Assembly: GCA_039033415.1 (NCBI GenBank)
Contig: JBCCCR010000012.1
Location: 62,001-126,000, forward strand
Reading direction: 5' to 3'
Source of the DNA: Pseudomonadota bacterium
GTDB lineage: Bacteria > Pseudomonadota > Gammaproteobacteria > Xanthomonadales > SZUA-38
Length of the DNA: 64,000 bases
Of the stretch, positions 7,796-23,028 are shown piece after piece (position 1 is the stretch's first letter; each line of letters begins with the position of its first letter). The notes under the pieces were generated by a model that was not told the origin of the DNA, made no database searches, and saw only the letters and a list, made by a program, of their open reading frames with translations. The position numbers and the translations under genes were made by a program.

Positions 7796-7845
7796 CCAGG
7801 ATGCAGGGTGCGGCCTGAGTCATTGAATGAATGGTGGCCAGGGGC
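7796..7845. repeat. Eroded att copy (third copy of the tRNA-Phe-flanking repeat)
   Basis: These 50 bases match the segment that joins the integrase 3' end to the tRNA-Phe 3' end at 22917-22966 and at 12237-12286, with scattered changes. The match includes the last bases of the tRNA (TGGTGGCCAGGGGC) and then stops abruptly where a REP-like inverted repeat begins. It is best explained as the left att scar of an older island inserted at the same tRNA gene. Confidence 0.6.
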
Positions 7846-11878: not shown

Positions 11879-12217
11879 GTGAATTCACGACGGGGCGAAC
11901 GCCCAGCCAATGTCTTCACCCATCGGGGCAAGCCGGTTCAAAGAATACTCATTGGCTCCTGTCGCCGGGTTCGAAAGGCATTTGGCCTCCCGCAGGCCCG
12001 GGTCCATGATTTGAAGCACACTTTCGGCCGCCGATTGAGGACCGCTGGAGTGAGTTTCAAAGTTCAGCAGGATCTACTGGGTCACCGTTCGGGTCGGATG
12101 ACCACACACTATTCGGCGGCGGAGCTTACGAGGCTCATTTGGGCTGCCAACACGGTGTGCGAACGGAAAGGAAACCGCCCCGAATTGGTCGTTTTGAGAC
12201 GAATTAGCGTGTCCTGA
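11879..12217 (+). pseudogene. 3' remnant of a tyrosine integrase
   Basis: These bases match the last part of the intact integrase (22560-22898) without any gap, at about nine identical bases in ten. The encoded 112 residues keep the C-terminal catalytic half: VHDLKHTFGRR (His-x-x-Arg), LLGHRS and the active-site Tyr in TTHYSAAEL, but the N-terminal core-binding half and the first Arg are missing. Homology fades upstream of 11879. It is the decayed integrase of an older island, still followed by its att/tRNA segment. Confidence 0.85.
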
Positions 12218-12236
12218 CTCACGCAAGAAAAAATCC

Positions 12237-12316
<80 letters not shown>

Positions 12317-12466: not shown

Positions 12467-14878
12467 CTACGTGTCGTTGGCAACGGTGTAGCCAATTGAC
12501 CGATATCCCCGAAGTCTTCGCTCGTACATCTTGCGGAGAATCGGTGAGTGCAGGTCCACGTAGTCGTAAACACGGACTTCTTCTTTACCGCGATATTGTC
12601 GATGAAGGCGGCCGACGTACTGTTGCAGAGTCCCCTTCCAGGAGATGGGCATAGTCAGGAACAGAGTGTCGAGCCTTGCATCATCAAACCCTTCTCCAAT
12701 GTAGCGGCCCGTTGCAATAATCAGGCGCTCTTGGTTGTCTGGAACTGCGCCGAGCTGATTGAGTGCATCCGCGGCCTGCTTCCGACTTCGACCGCCGCGA
12801 AGAATTACAACGTTCTTGGCGAAACGCCCAAGCTTCTCAGCTAACAACTCCGCGTGGCGCACCCGTTCTGTCAGCACAAGCGGCGTCCGTCCCGCGTCGA
12901 GCGCCTGGAGGATGTCGTCGAAAATCTGGCCATTCCTTTGGTCATCTTGGGCCAGTTTCCCGTAGAGAGCCTGAATGCCGATCTCGCTAGCGTTGCCGGG
13001 TACGACAAAATCGGTGTATCGGGGGATCAGCCGATACTCGAGCTTTGCCAATTGCCGCTGTTTCTGTTGGGGAACCCGGTGTCGTATCGGGCCGCACTGC
13101 ATCAGGATGATGGGATGGTGTCCGTCCTTTCGCGTAGGCGTCGCCGTGAGACCAAGAACGTACTTCGCACGGACCTGCTTGAGAATCGATTCAAAGCTGA
13201 ATGCGGAAACGTGGTGTGCCTCGTCAACGATAACCTGACCGTATTGTGTGACCATCGGGTCGACCTTTCCTTGCCGGTTGAGGCTTTGTATGACAGCGAT
13301 ATCGATCTTTAAAGTTTGGATGCGCTTCCCTCCGCCGATTTGTCCGATCTTGCCCGCCGGCTGGTCCAGAAATGTGGTCAGGCGTTCGCGCCACTGGTCC
13401 ATCAATTGGCGTCGATGCACGAGGATCAAGGTGTTTCGCTGTCTTTCTCCGATTAAGGCGGCGGCGACCACGGTCTTGCCAAAAGCGGTGGGTGCGCATA
13501 GAAGCCCCGTTTCCTCAGCCAGCAAGTCACGAACTGCCGCATCTTGCTCAGGGCGCAGGCAGCCCTGAAACTTTGCGTCAATGGGAGTGCCCGCGTTTCG
13601 CTGATCTTTGAGAACGACTTCGATCTTAATATCTTCCAGTATTGACACTGCGGCATCCAAACAACCCCGGGGCAATACGATTGTCCGGTCAAGGTCTTCG
13701 GCACAGGAGATAATTCTGGGCTTCCCGTACGTTGACATACGCATTGCCTGCGCCCGGTAGAACTCCGGGTTTTGAAACGCCGCTTTACGGATGAGTGCGT
13801 TCTGAAGGCTAGGGGGAATTCCTTGCTTCGGGATATGAAGACCATTCGCCAGGACCAGATTTACCGTTTTGGGAACGGCCCCTGTCGTTTGGAGGTCGGG
13901 CTCTTCTTGAGAATTCGGCCCAGCTCCTGGGTCTTCGAGTTCGTCACTCCATACTGAGGCCCCGCGAACACCGAGCAGACTGTCACCAACGTCATATTGC
14001 TGAATCAGGCGTTCAACCTCATTTGATGAAACGCGTTTCATACGATCCAAATAGGCCCATTGGTCGTCGACGGTTTCAAGCTGACTAGACAGGAATTCGC
14101 TGTTGCCGACCTCTCTCGGACGTTTTTGCAGCGGCAAAGCGATCAGGTTGCCGAATCCTCCTTTTGGCAGCGTGTCCTGGCTCGGGAAAAAGCGGTCGTA
14201 GGACTCGAGGCCGATTCCAGGCCGTTGAGCTGTGGCGCGTGTCAGGATGAGTGAGCCTATTTTTCTGGCCAGAGACGCCTGCACCGCGTGGGTGAAGAAG
14301 ATCCATACGTGTGCGCCATCACCAGAGCGCGATCGCTCCACGTATGCCGGTACCTTGAAGTGCTCGCAACTCTCGAGGAAAGCAACCACGTCATCTCGCC
14401 AAGATGTCTTATCGAAGTCGATCGCCAGGAACCAAGAGGAACCGTCTGCCAGAATCGGATACACACCGAGCGTTTTTTTTCCAATCAAATGGTCGCGAAT
14501 CACCCGATCGGTAATAGAGAGAAATTGGCTGTTAGGGCAGGTCCCGCACTTTATCCTGGGTTTGTTGCACAGGGTCTTGTGCCATTCGTTGCCGCATGCT
14601 GGCGAGTAACCAGCTCGACCTTTCTGGTTCTCCCACCGAACCGCATACACGTCCTCACGACCTCGAAATAGACTTCGAAATAAGCGTATCTTCTCCTCCA
14701 CGCCCGATTGGTTGGTAACGCCAGTGGCGCAGGTGGGTTCGCTCTCAGGCGGCGCCGAGGGAGGTCCGGGCGGCCCCAGTTCCTTCCGGAGTTCCCGGAT
14801 CTCTTTCTTAAGCCGATGGTTTTCAGCCCGTATGCGATTTAGCTCAGCTTCAAGCGTCTCTCGTGACTGCTCAGGCAT
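12467..14878 (-). CDS. TOTE conflict-system protein: archaeo-eukaryotic primase domain fused to SF2 helicase
   Basis: Predicted nucleic-acid defence protein of 803 residues (ATG at 14878; a GTG at 14905 is also possible). Order: coiled coil with Leu/Glu heptads (about 5-35); Pro-rich linker; AEP-primase domain (about 60-290) with a Cys cluster at 95/104/111/114, the metal-binding Asp pair in AIDFDKTSW (154, 156) and His190 in SGDGAHVW; linker; SF2 helicase with Walker A APTAFGKT (about 462-469), DEAHH (552), LTATPTRKD, ATGRYIGEGF and QYVGRLHRQ. All core motifs are intact. TOTE-type primase-helicases are known from predicted conflict systems; no nuclease domain is seen here. It begins 7 bases after the AbiEii stop, so it is the third gene of an AbiEi-AbiEii-TOTE operon. 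Confidence 0.88.
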   Translation of the reverse strand: MPEQSRETLEAELNRIRAENHRLKKEIRELRKELGPPGPPSAPPESEPTCATGVTNQSGVEEKIRLFRSLFRGREDVYAVRWENQKGRAGYSPACGNEWHKTLCNKPRIKCGTCPNSQFLSITDRVIRDHLIGKKTLGVYPILADGSSWFLAIDFDKTSWRDDVVAFLESCEHFKVPAYVERSRSGDGAHVWIFFTHAVQASLARKIGSLILTRATAQRPGIGLESYDRFFPSQDTLPKGGFGNLIALPLQKRPREVGNSEFLSSQLETVDDQWAYLDRMKRVSSNEVERLIQQYDVGDSLLGVRGASVWSDELEDPGAGPNSQEEPDLQTTGAVPKTVNLVLANGLHIPKQGIPPSLQNALIRKAAFQNPEFYRAQAMRMSTYGKPRIISCAEDLDRTIVLPRGCLDAAVSILEDIKIEVVLKDQRNAGTPIDAKFQGCLRPEQDAAVRDLLAEETGLLCAPTAFGKTVVAAALIGERQRNTLILVHRRQLMDQWRERLTTFLDQPAGKIGQIGGGKRIQTLKIDIAVIQSLNRQGKVDPMVTQYGQVIVDEAHHVSAFSFESILKQVRAKYVLGLTATPTRKDGHHPIILMQCGPIRHRVPQQKQRQLAKLEYRLIPRYTDFVVPGNASEIGIQALYGKLAQDDQRNGQIFDDILQALDAGRTPLVLTERVRHAELLAEKLGRFAKNVVILRGGRSRKQAADALNQLGAVPDNQERLIIATGRYIGEGFDDARLDTLFLTMPISWKGTLQQYVGRLHRQYRGKEEVRVYDYVDLHSPILRKMYERRLRGYRSIGYTVANDT

Positions 14879-14885
14879 GTCCCAA

Positions 14886-15746
14886 TCACCGGTGTAGAAG
14901 CTCACAAGCTGGAGCTAAACGACTCCAGACCAGATCTGTCGCGTTCTCGAGAGATAGCCCCTCCAGGCCGATCGAAGCAGCATAGGCGGCCCACTGCTGG
15001 GCCTTTTGCGGATCCGTGGAAAATTGATCCGACAAACCGATTGGTTGTGCCCTCGGGACCTCGGTCTTCCGCCGATTAAAGGTCGCTGCTATGGCGTCGG
15101 CCAACTCGTGTTGAGAAACGGACTGAGAACTCAGTATGGCCCAAAGATCGTAGTAATCCTTCATGCGACTGTTGACGAGCCCAAGTGTAATCATCGCGTG
15201 GAACTTTTCTGCTACTACACTGGCTGGAGGGTAGGCTCGTATTGTGACAGCGGGCATGTCGAGGAGTGTCGGATATTCAATCGTGAAATCTGGAGCCACG
15301 GTCGCATCGCCGAATCCGACATCAAGCACTATGGGGATGCGAGTCTTCCCCAGGTTCGCGACCGTCTTGAGGCGGATACCCCCGTATTCCTGTTCCTCAC
15401 GGATTGTCCTGGCGGTCAGGTTCTCAATGTCATAAACCAGTCCATCTTCCACCTGCTGGCTCATCACCTCAGAGAATACAGATAGCAGGTGCCCCTCGGA
15501 CGGATCGCCGAAACATAGGAAGTCAGCATCCCGAGTTACACGATTCTGATCTCCAATCCAGAGTGTAACCAACATGCCACCCTTCAGAACGAATGCATCG
15601 CGGTGCTCCGATATGGACATTCGATAAAGCAGGCGCTCCAGGCCGTAACCTACAAGAACGACATCAAATATCTGGCCTTTCTTTCGTGCAAGGTTTAGAA
15701 GTCGCTGTCTGATAGACGCAGGCGAGTTGTTTTGGCTCTTAGCCAC
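14886..15746 (-). CDS. abiEii: AbiEii-type nucleotidyltransferase toxin
   Basis: Toxin of a type IV toxin-antitoxin pair; the family is a DNA polymerase beta-like nucleotidyltransferase that modifies tRNA or other targets using NTPs. The 286 residues contain the expected motifs: LKGGMLV followed about 18 residues later by RDADFL (motif I with the metal-binding Asp pair), VAEKFHAM with its Lys (motif II), and SRMKDYYDLWAI (motif III). Length fits the family. It overlaps AbiEi by 8 bases and is followed closely by the TOTE gene. In known systems the antitoxin does not bind the toxin but represses the operon and counteracts its effect; whether this holds here is inference. Confidence 0.9.
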   Translation of the reverse strand: MAKSQNNSPASIRQRLLNLARKKGQIFDVVLVGYGLERLLYRMSISEHRDAFVLKGGMLVTLWIGDQNRVTRDADFLCFGDPSEGHLLSVFSEVMSQQVEDGLVYDIENLTARTIREEQEYGGIRLKTVANLGKTRIPIVLDVGFGDATVAPDFTIEYPTLLDMPAVTIRAYPPASVVAEKFHAMITLGLVNSRMKDYYDLWAILSSQSVSQHELADAIAATFNRRKTEVPRAQPIGLSDQFSTDPQKAQQWAAYAASIGLEGLSLENATDLVWSRLAPACELLHR

Positions 15747-20162: not shown

Positions 20163-20365
20163 TGAGGCGATTTAGCATTTCGCTAAATAATTGTTTTCTA
20201 TAGGTATTGAAGCCAAACAGGCTTCGATGTACTGTATAGCGGTCGTGGTCGTTCGACCGCGTTTCCTTTTCCCATTTCACGACCCTACATCGGGGGAATA
20301 GGGACCCGGTCTCATTGAGACCGCTAAGTCCGGTAAGCTGTATTCGGAGTTTTTCCTACCCAAGA
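20163..20365. repeat. Structured tandem element, copy 1
   Basis: One of two diverged copies about 292-296 bases apart. Shared parts in order: palindrome TTTAGC-N5-GCTAAA (20171-20187); a hairpin-forming CCC-TACATC-GGG segment (about 20283); a stem-loop CGGTCTC-ATT-GAGACCG (20307-20323); and GGAGTTTTTCCT near 20346. Copy 1 also has GAAGCC-AAACA-GGCTTC (20209-20225) and CGGTCG...CGACCG hairpins. No reading frame is conserved between the copies. Function unknown; it may be a small RNA, a regulator site or a recombination site of the island. Confidence 0.5.
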
Positions 20366-20461
20366 TGGCCCGCAAGCTTTATAGAAATCCTGCGGTGGCG
20401 CCGCCGATTTTTTTCATGCCGACGACCCATAGGACAACGGCATCTTGAACGCCGGAAGAGT

Positions 20462-20660
20462 TTTTAGCATTCTGCTAAATAACTGATTTAATTGAACATA
20501 TTGACTCCAGGTCGGTTTCAATATAACCTCGAAGCCAATTAGTCGTCCGACCACTCGCCTCCCCTTTTCTGATCCCGATCCCACGACGGGAGGATATACA
20601 CCTGTTCTCAATGAGAACAGTAACGCCGTAAAAGCCGTACCTGAGTTTTTTCTCGCCTAA
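20462..20660. repeat. Structured tandem element, copy 2
   Basis: Matches copy 1 in layout: palindrome TTTAGCA-TTC-TGCTAAA (20463-20479), TCCC-ACGAC-GGGA (about 20579-20591), stem-loop CTGTTCTC-AAT-GAGAACAG (20602-20620), then TGAGTTTTTTCT near 20642. Against copy 1 the main stem differs by paired changes (G-C to T-A and C-G to T-A) that keep it closed, while flanking sequence has drifted. That pattern points to selection on structure. Confidence 0.5.
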
Positions 20661-21020
20661 AAGTTCTCAAAATAAACTCAATCGCATTGGCACCGGGCTT
20701 TTTGTCGCCGTTTTCGCAACACAGAAACAATAACTCGGACTTTAGGCACCAAAAGCCTCCGCATGCTACTTTTTCGGCTACTGCGCGTTGCGCGGCCGAA
20801 GTGTGCTCTACCCCCCCCTTTTGATCGAGCCACCCAGGTTGGGTCGCGTTAGCCGAGGTCCCCGATTCCTGTTCGATTCGCAAATCCAAACGAATCACCT
20901 CTGGTTTGGCCGCTCCCAAGCCTCTTAGTTTTCAACTGCTCATTCATGGTGTTCAAGCAATCGACGATTGCCACGTACCCAAAGATCCGATGATTGTCGC
21001 GGTGTACCAACTAGACGCTT

Positions 21021-21059
21021 GCCCGCGTCACTACCAGCGAAGCCTGTAGTGACGCGGGC
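21021..21059. repeat. Perfect 14-bp hairpin
   Basis: GCCCGCGTCACTAC (21021-21034) and its exact complement (21046-21059) flank an 11-base loop. No T-run follows on either strand, so it is not an ordinary terminator. It could be an RNA stem or a protein site of the integrative element. Confidence 0.6.
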
Positions 21060-21275
21060 CGCAAACCCAATAACTGCGGGGTATTCGGCCCGGAATTTTC
21101 CGGTACGGGCGAGTGATCTGGTCGTATAGTTAATCCCACAACCGGCTCCTCAGCGGCTCTGAGGAACTCTTCGGGCTAACGCCCTACACAACTTCGGTTG
21201 TATTCGAGCCGCGCCAATAACGCGTACTCACTATCAATTCGACTTCGGTCCTAAAGGTTAAGGAGGTGATCAAAC

Positions 21276-21362
21276 TTGATACCACATTCAATTCATTCGT
21301 CCGTATGGACGTTAGATTTTGCGCCGGAACCATCCTCAACGAGGAGAACCGGCGTTGCCTGA
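21276..21362 (+). CDS. Possible 28-codon leader peptide after an unusually strong ribosome site
   Basis: TAAGGAGGTGATC at 21259-21271 is complementary to 13 bases of the usual 16S rRNA 3' end, far beyond a normal site. A TTG codon follows at 21276 with suitable spacing and opens a 28-residue frame (begins MIPHSIHSSVWTLDF, ends GVA) that stops with TGA at 21360-21362. The hairpins just upstream could control access to the site. The peptide matches nothing I know; a leader or regulatory peptide is possible, and the match could also be chance. Confidence 0.3.
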   Translation: MIPHSIHSSVWTLDFAPEPSSTRRTGVA

Positions 21363-21591
21363 TGCTCAGGCGCTTTCAGATGAATGGGGAGTGGTGTCCC
21401 CGGACCTGTGCCTAAATGGTTTCGTTTGCTACGGCGACGGATAGGTCAGAAACACTAACCAACATGCCAACACCATTGAGAAATCTGAAAAACCAATCAA
21501 ACGCGCGATGCCGTTTCCTACGACCGCGGAATCGCAGCGATTCATATCGTTCAATCAACCTTAGGCGAAACACTGGCGGCACGAACAAACT

Positions 21592-21945
21592 ATGAACCGG
21601 CGTGCCGTGATTACACCCAGGCTTTTGCGTCTTCGCGACGCGCCGGCCTACCTCGGAATGGATCGAAACCGATTTAATCGGGAGGTGCGGCCGTTCCTGA
21701 CGAGGGTGCCCATCGGCCGACATGGAATTGCTTTTGACCGACTTGAACTCGACCAGTGGGTGGACGACTATATCTCCCGCAACGGGCGTCCCGGTCGATT
21801 GCAAGGAGAATCACTATGGGACGCAAAAAGACACCCGGTCTTGTCAAGAGATCGGGGATTTGGCACATCGACAAACGGATCGAAGGGCTCAGAGTTTGCC
21901 AAAGCACTGGCTCAGCTGAACTCGCCGAAGCGCAGCGATACTTAG
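21592..21945 (+). CDS. AlpA/excisionase-like helix-turn-helix protein
   Basis: A 117-residue protein whose N-terminal half has the AlpA/excisionase-type winged helix: RLLRLRDAPAYLGMDRNRF (about 10-28) with the wing VPIGRHGIAFDRLELDQWVDDYI. Small proteins of this kind regularly precede a tyrosine integrase in proteobacterial islands and act as excision directionality factor or integrase regulator. The C-terminal third is encoded over the start of the integrase gene in another frame (overlap 21816-21945), which fits coupled expression of the two. Confidence 0.75.
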   Translation: MNRRAVITPRLLRLRDAPAYLGMDRNRFNREVRPFLTRVPIGRHGIAFDRLELDQWVDDYISRNGRPGRLQGESLWDAKRHPVLSRDRGFGTSTNGSKGSEFAKALAQLNSPKRSDT

Positions 21946-22898
21946 CCAGGCTATCCGAGACGATTCGCAGCGCCAAGGTCTACGGCGTCAGGCCGGATAG
22001 AACGTTCGAGCAGGCGGCGATCAAATTTGTTCGTGAGAACCAGCACAAGCGGTCACTCAACCGAGACATCTGTTGTCTCAAGCAACTGATGCCGTTCATC
22101 GGGGATCTGCCAATCAACCGCATTCATCGCGGCACACTCGATCCATGGATCGATCATCGACGAGAGGAGGGTAGGGCAACCGGAACAATAAACCACGGTT
22201 TGAAAGTGGTTCGGCGTATCTTGAATCTCGCCGAATACGAATGGTTCGACGAACAGGGTCTAACCTGGTTGGACCGCGCGCCACGAATCAAGCTGCTTCC
22301 CGATACCAACAAGCGACAGCCGTATCCGCTGAACTGGGACGAGCAACAACAGCTGTTTTCACAGCTTCCGTCACATCTCGCGGAGATGGCGCTATTTGCG
22401 GTCAATACTGGCTGCCGAGACAGCGAGATTTGTCGTTTGCGCTGGGATTGGGAAGTGAAGGTTCCACAGCTGGATACCTTTGTGTTCATTGTTCCAGGAA
22501 GTTTCGTAAAAAACGGCGACGAACGGCTGATTGTCTTGAACAACATTGCCCGCTCGGTGGTGAATTCACGACGGGGCAAACACCCCTACAATGTCTTCAC
22601 CCATCGAGGCAAGCCGGTACAAAGGATGCTCAATAGCTCCTGGTGCAGGGTTCGAAAAGCCGTTGGACTCCCGCAGGTTCGGGTCCATGATTTGAAGCAC
22701 ACTTTCGGCCGCCGATTGAGGGCCGCTGGAGTGAGTTTCGAAGATCGGCAGGATCTACTGGGTCACCGTTCGGATCGCATGACCACACACTACTCGGCGG
22801 CGGAGCTTACGAGGCTCATTGAGGCTGCCAATACGGTGTGCGAACGGAAAGGAAACCGCCCCGAATTGGTCGTTTTGAGACGAATTAGCGTGTCCTGA
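21816..22898 (+). CDS. Tyrosine recombinase / phage-type integrase (intact)
   Basis: A 360-residue integrase from the ATG at 21816, which has AAGGAGA just before it; the frame is open further upstream but that part overlaps the HTH gene. Order: an N-terminal Arm-type strand region (VKRSGIWHIDKRI), a core-binding SAM-like domain (about 60-150), and the catalytic domain with Arg in NTGCRDSEICRLRW, His-x-x-Arg in VHDLKHTFGRR, His in LLGHRS and the nucleophile Tyr in TTHYSAAEL. All catalytic residues are present. The gene ends 55 bases before the tRNA-Phe 3' end, the expected place for an integrase that targets this tRNA. A decayed relative lies at 11.9 kb. Confidence 0.93.
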   Translation: MGRKKTPGLVKRSGIWHIDKRIEGLRVCQSTGSAELAEAQRYLARLSETIRSAKVYGVRPDRTFEQAAIKFVRENQHKRSLNRDICCLKQLMPFIGDLPINRIHRGTLDPWIDHRREEGRATGTINHGLKVVRRILNLAEYEWFDEQGLTWLDRAPRIKLLPDTNKRQPYPLNWDEQQQLFSQLPSHLAEMALFAVNTGCRDSEICRLRWDWEVKVPQLDTFVFIVPGSFVKNGDERLIVLNNIARSVVNSRRGKHPYNVFTHRGKPVQRMLNSSWCRVRKAVGLPQVRVHDLKHTFGRRLRAAGVSFEDRQDLLGHRSDRMTTHYSAAELTRLIEAANTVCERKGNRPELVVLRRISVS

Positions 22899-22917
22899 CT
22901 CACGCAAGAAAAAATCC

Positions 22918-23028
<111 letters not shown>

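Follow-up and report, generated by a model that had tools for sequence, protein, structure and literature searches.

Tandem structured units beside a probable origin of transfer in a tRNA-Phe island of the Lysobacterales

The window, a 64,000-nucleotide stretch of DNA from a bacterium of the Lysobacterales, carries two similar noncoding elements near an integrase gene, which raises the questions of whether they are a selected structure, to which class they belong and what they do in the island that holds them. An earlier note, made from the letters only, described them as two copies 292-296 bases apart that share a palindrome, a CCC/GGG hairpin, a stem with a three-base loop and a T-rich block, and all these motifs lie where it had placed them.

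Sequence, distribution and fold of the twin units

The elements and the block to which they belong are the following.

20171..20356, plus strand: structured unit 1, about 190 nt
20171..20187, plus strand: TTTAGC-N5-GCTAAA palindrome of unit 1
20307..20323, plus strand: CGGTCTC-ATT-GAGACCG hairpin of unit 1
20392..20414, plus strand: terminator-like element between the units (GC stem, then T7), a consensus match only
20463..20652, plus strand: structured unit 2, a diverged tandem copy of unit 1, about 190 nt
20602..20620, plus strand: CTGTTCTC-AAT-GAGAACAG hairpin of unit 2
20653..21020, plus strand: remainder of the conserved noncoding block, from unit 2 to a hairpin described below

The palindrome starts at 20171 in unit 1 (TTTAGCATTTCGCTAAA) and at 20463 in unit 2 (TTTAGCATTCTGCTAAA), a spacing of 292, while the CGGTCTC-ATT-GAGACCG hairpin and its counterpart in unit 2 are 296 apart and GAGTTTTT is found at 20347 and 20643. 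A further palindrome, absent from the earlier note, is present as GGTCGTTCGACC at 20247 and as GTCGTCCGAC at 20542. From 5' to 3', unit 1 is built by the TTTAGC hairpin, a second hairpin, the GGTCGTTCGACC hairpin, a helix between C-rich and G-rich strands, the CGGTCTC/GAGACCG hairpin and the GAGTTTTT end. Unit 1 and unit 2 reach a local alignment score of 105, whereas dinucleotide shuffles (n=2000) average 22.0 and do not exceed 42, so the similarity of the two copies survives formal alignment and is beyond chance.

The pair is found in the same order at two further places of the window's own genome, C7 (90% identity) and C4 (89%), and a search of relatives adds one sister genome, G001 (86%), whose contig was identified by a pattern scan of GTDB as part of a Lysobacterales MAG, IP29b_bin.149. 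The conserved noncoding homology spans about 900 bp, from the first TTTAGC palindrome to just beyond the hairpin at 21021-21059. Similarity between the window and the other islands starts at that palindrome, and between the two islands at tRNA-Arg (C4 and G001) about 44 bp before it; on the other side it ends just past the hairpin in comparison with C4 and G001, and runs on through the leader in comparison with C7. The loci otherwise differ by 10-20%, and within the block conservation is highest in the stems; the T-run of the terminator-like element is kept in all four loci. No sigma-70 promoter was found in the block by scan.

A covariance model of the unit, a test that the earlier note had proposed, gave matches only within this genus of Lysobacterales, among 398 genomes of the order and 369 of the class that were scanned with stricter filters, under which weak matches may be lost. 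The GTDB-wide pattern scan gave the sister genome and eight matches that resemble only the palindrome, and nothing convincing was found in viral contigs, phages and plasmids. Rfam models matched the units, at gathering and at relaxed thresholds, only as tRNA or by chance. An integron-type attC/attI array or cassette site at the TTTAGC palindrome was considered because the homology starts there, and it was ruled out, since the palindrome has no further genomic copies with up to two mismatches besides those of the six units.

Two contig ends of the window's genome (G000 C43 and C15) fall inside the leader that precedes Integrase_1 genes, which suggests collapsed repeats, and further copies of the block are possibly missing from the assembly. 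A sequence of 59 bp immediately to the left of the C7 block (L030 9924-9982) recurs at contig ends of the sister genome (G001 C123:23-81 and C66:23-81) and is possibly the end of an insertion sequence.

The fold of the units, which was modelled as a nested fold only, is strongly supported. RNAalifold on the eight unit copies gives -35.9 kcal/mol on the plus strand (z = -9.3 against column shuffles) and -26.5 kcal/mol on the minus strand (z = -7.3), and 93.6% of the cells pair in the proposed fold, against 36-46% when the partners are slid by 1-3 columns. The units also contain a long-range closing helix, in which AANTG pairs with GAGTT. The z-scores of single copies lie between -1.4 and -3.9 for the plus strand and between -0.4 and -3.6 for the minus strand; the plus strand folds better in 8/8 copies (means of about -2.5 and -1.8). 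Counted by columns, about eight wobble-type departures allow G-U and about six A-C, which gives no clear strand bias.

Paired substitutions in the stem, which the earlier note put forward, are real, but as evidence they are thinner than it implied. Both sides change in seven pairs of the unit fold, where refolded column shuffles average 4.0 such pairs and reach up to 11. Most of these changes are one single split between copy 1 and copy 2, and the stem quoted in that note (CGGTCTC/GAGACCG in copy 1, CTGTTCTC/GAGAACAG in copy 2) also changed in a single split, because each form is invariant within its four orthologues. Compensating changes, taken alone, are thus weak evidence for the structure. 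The CCC/GGG hairpin is present too, but in copy 1 it is a weaker alternative to the helix TTCCTTTTCCC/GGGAATAGGGA, which is found in 4/4 orthologues, slightly shifted in G001; in copy 2, no more than two of the four sequences have the counterpart of this helix, CCTCCC/GGGAGG, as their best pairing. Selection on structure, as the note had proposed, is supported on other grounds, which are the conservation of the whole unit in four loci, the extreme folding scores and the lack of a coding explanation.

The hairpin, the Integrase_1 gene and the island

On the right, the block is followed by these features.

21021..21059, plus strand: hairpin GCCCGCGTCACTAC..GTAGTGACGCGGGC, the probable oriT core, judging by its placement
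21060..21475, plus strand: conserved structured leader before a relaxase-like gene, with AAGGAGGTGATC at 21260
21476..21513, plus strand: remnant of an Integrase_1 gene, about 12 codons, the rest being deleted
21592..21945, plus strand: small protein before the integrase, a possible DNA-binding factor by its position
21816..22898, plus strand: tyrosine integrase (PF00589) of the island
22953..23028, minus strand: tRNA-Phe, the integration target

The earlier note placed the units near the integrase, which is true, but it missed a more telling neighbour, the hairpin, which is followed in the other loci by the relaxase-like gene. In C4, G001 and C7 the block precedes an intact gene with PF12834 and PF12835 (Integrase_1), and in C4 and G001 this gene is followed by a small protein, a true integrase and tRNA-Arg. 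The small protein of the window (21592..21945) has no match in Pfam or NCBIfam. In 4/4 loci the hairpin separates the units from the relaxase-like gene or from what is left of it. Every unit locus thus has an Integrase_1 gene or remnant, but many Integrase_1 loci are without units, even in the same genome (C1), and therefore the units are not essential to the module. The unit model likewise gave no match upstream of other Integrase_1 hairpins.

Hairpins of the type GTCACT..AGTGAC are found upstream of Integrase_1 genes in 33/56 loci, a number that includes repeat entries for the home loci, so that the effective number is somewhat smaller, and downstream in 0/63; permuted motifs occur upstream at a mean of 0.47/56. 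Breakpoints between mosaic loci are often at the hairpin edges. C7 and C4 share the region from the hairpin leftward, while the region from the hairpin rightward is common to L044 and L129, and likewise to L116 and L120. The block travels with the hairpin, and the leader and gene to its right are exchangeable between loci.

Proteins of the Integrase_1 type have been called phage integrases (PMC9769806). Their relatives are encoded on small plasmids, of which some measure 4-9 kb, and adjoin a VirD4-like coupling protein on pSIO1, pA53P3 and a 35-kb Pleionea plasmid; some plasmids carry Integrase_1 plus an ordinary relaxase. The HxxRH motif and a C-terminal tyrosine are kept in these relatives and are present in C4, G001 and C7. 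No solved structure related to the Integrase_1 protein was found by sequence. MpsA of SGI1 and MobK of pIGRK are tyrosine-recombinase-like relaxases with oriT upstream (PMC6414798, PMC8152469). The hairpin at 21021-21059 is a probable oriT and the Integrase_1 gene a probable relaxase, because of the hairpin placement, the coupling-protein neighbours and the precedents of MpsA and MobK.

The tRNA-Phe and integrase ends (22880-23028) are repeated directly near 12199-12316 and 7796-7845, which shows that islands are stacked at tRNA-Phe. An integrase remnant is found at about 11879-12217. The cargo on the left side includes a protein (12467-14905) that joins a primase domain of the TOTE conflict systems to a helicase domain, which is likely an island defence gene, an AbiE-like pair, judged by eye, and a BlaI/BlaR-like pair.

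Possible roles of the units

The units are a real, lineage-specific structured pair in a mobilization region and belong to no described family. They are tentatively read, with a chance a little short of even, as structured elements that flank the oriT of an integrative mobilizable element at tRNA-Phe, in the form of a transcribed RNA that helps transfer. Transcription of the plus strand toward the hairpin would yield a structured RNA with the units in tandem, and this RNA, if SGI1 is a guide, would help to assemble or regulate the transfer complex, with the units as its repeated protein-binding modules. The island of the window would be movable only in trans, because its relaxase-like gene is deleted, and one of the genome's five intact Integrase_1 genes may serve for this.

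A role as transcribed RNA is favoured because of the positions of STAXI, PAGEV and RAGATH RNAs, the preference of the STAXI authors for RNA and the RNA requirement of SGI1. The better fold of the plus strand also speaks for this reading; against it stand the negative promoter scan, the minus-strand fold that is likewise far from random, the wobble-type departures, the Integrase_1 loci that have no units and the plasmids that pair Integrase_1 with an ordinary relaxase. STAXI in a Salmonella plasmid and PAGEV on pSIO1 both precede the hairpin and the Integrase_1 gene and are on the same strand. In two other genera, RAGATH-13 and RAGATH-32 RNAs are found between the GTCACT hairpin and the Integrase_1 gene (L102 561-656; L104 361-439 and 571-665). 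STAXI (RF01728) consists, like the window units, of tandem structured repeats near DNA-handling genes, with at least two repeats, in STAXI each with a pseudoknot, but its hairpins and unit length are different and its covariance model does not match the units even at E up to 10. PAGEV (RF03037), whose model does not match the units either, is a single copy in pSIO1 and is farther from the hairpin. The unknown class of the earlier note therefore stands as far as described families and Rfam are concerned, but STAXI and PAGEV share the position on plasmids with Integrase_1 relatives, and the units are a new lineage-specific family of a kind already known, with RNA as its preferred form.

The SGI1 module (oriT, MpsA, sgm-sRNA) has a tyrosine-recombinase-like protein downstream, an inverted-repeat oriT upstream and a conserved RNA-coding region around oriT (PMC6414798, PMC9299015), of which C4, G001 and C7 have the protein, a conserved hairpin as the putative oriT and, for the last, a conserved structure only. 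Mobilization of SGI1 needs RNA from a transcript that runs through oriT toward mpsA (PMC9299015). Integrase_1 is likened to MpsA by HxxRH, the C-terminal tyrosine and the gene layout, and in the window it is present only as a remnant. The functional core of sgm-sRNA is flanked by oriT and mpsA and has the position of the leader, whereas the tandem units are on the other side of the hairpin, and no MpsB-like domain was recognised here, unlike in the SGI1 module. MobK/oriT of pIGRK and TcpM of pCW3 are likewise tyrosine-recombinase-like relaxases with oriT upstream, for which the available part of the source (PMC8152469) describes no tandem structured units; these systems were compared by description only.

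Single-stranded DNA elements are an unlikely but serious alternative, in which the block would be part of the leading region, fold on entry into the recipient and act as priming (ssi-like) or early-expression sites. The block adjoins the probable oriT on the side opposite the relaxase-like gene, and its two diverged copies recall Frpo1/Frpo2 of F; the Frpo/ssi elements of F-type leading regions are also repeated folded noncoding elements beside oriT (PMC9849209, PMC11541004), which were compared by description. The minus-strand fold is significant too, and Weinberg et al. weighed single-stranded DNA against RNA for STAXI before they preferred RNA (PMC2864571). Yet the long promoter-bearing stem of Frpo is not seen in the units, where neither folds with RNA parameters nor a scan for double-stranded promoters shows a long stem that rebuilds -35/-10 boxes, and it is the plus strand that folds better, while the usual layout would make the minus strand the transferred one.

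Slightly less likely, but likewise a serious alternative, are protein-binding dyads in double-stranded DNA, which could be relaxosome accessory sites, integrase arm sites or the replication origin of the excised element. The TTTAGC palindrome is nearly invariant between the copies and has a conserved loop, CTCANTGAG, inside its stem, as expected of a dimer operator, and paired changes in a palindrome preserve symmetry as well as pairing; however, the long-range closing helix (AANTG with GAGTT) and the C-rich/G-rich helix are not simple dyads, and the four palindromes differ from one another in sequence. A decaying, functionless duplicate carried along with neighbouring recombination genes, to which the few loci and the deletion of the window's own relaxase-like gene would be suited, is highly improbable, since the stems are the best conserved part of the block and the two copies, although strongly diverged, have retained a common architecture.

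Integrase_1 modules in other genera

It is possible, although doubtful, that the Integrase_1 mobilization modules of many Proteobacteria rely on dedicated structured RNAs around oriT, namely the leader and lineage-specific elements such as the tandem units, STAXI or PAGEV. In that case conjugation assisted by RNA, which has so far been described for SGI1, would be widespread. The need of SGI1 for its own small RNA is unexplained and its module has been described as seemingly unique. Related modules with conserved folded elements around oriT would allow the part of RNA in conjugation to be studied in many systems. They would also suggest that many small plasmids typed as non-mobilizable can be mobilized, and would place STAXI and PAGEV in a context open to testing.

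The leader precedes Integrase_1 genes in many genera, including the loci L030, L084-L091 and L114, and it may be a larger find than the units. Over 11 loci its predicted fold has 76 pairs, of which 25 have both partners substituted, whereas shuffles average 4.25 such pairs and do not exceed 10; the leader has no match in Rfam at the gathering threshold. In most close relatives AGGAGGT, a Shine-Dalgarno-like sequence, is found some 206-217 nt upstream of the Integrase_1 gene, with no consistent reading frame after it. In another genus (L084), about 250-500 bp around the hairpin region seem to be tandemly duplicated upstream of the Integrase_1 gene.
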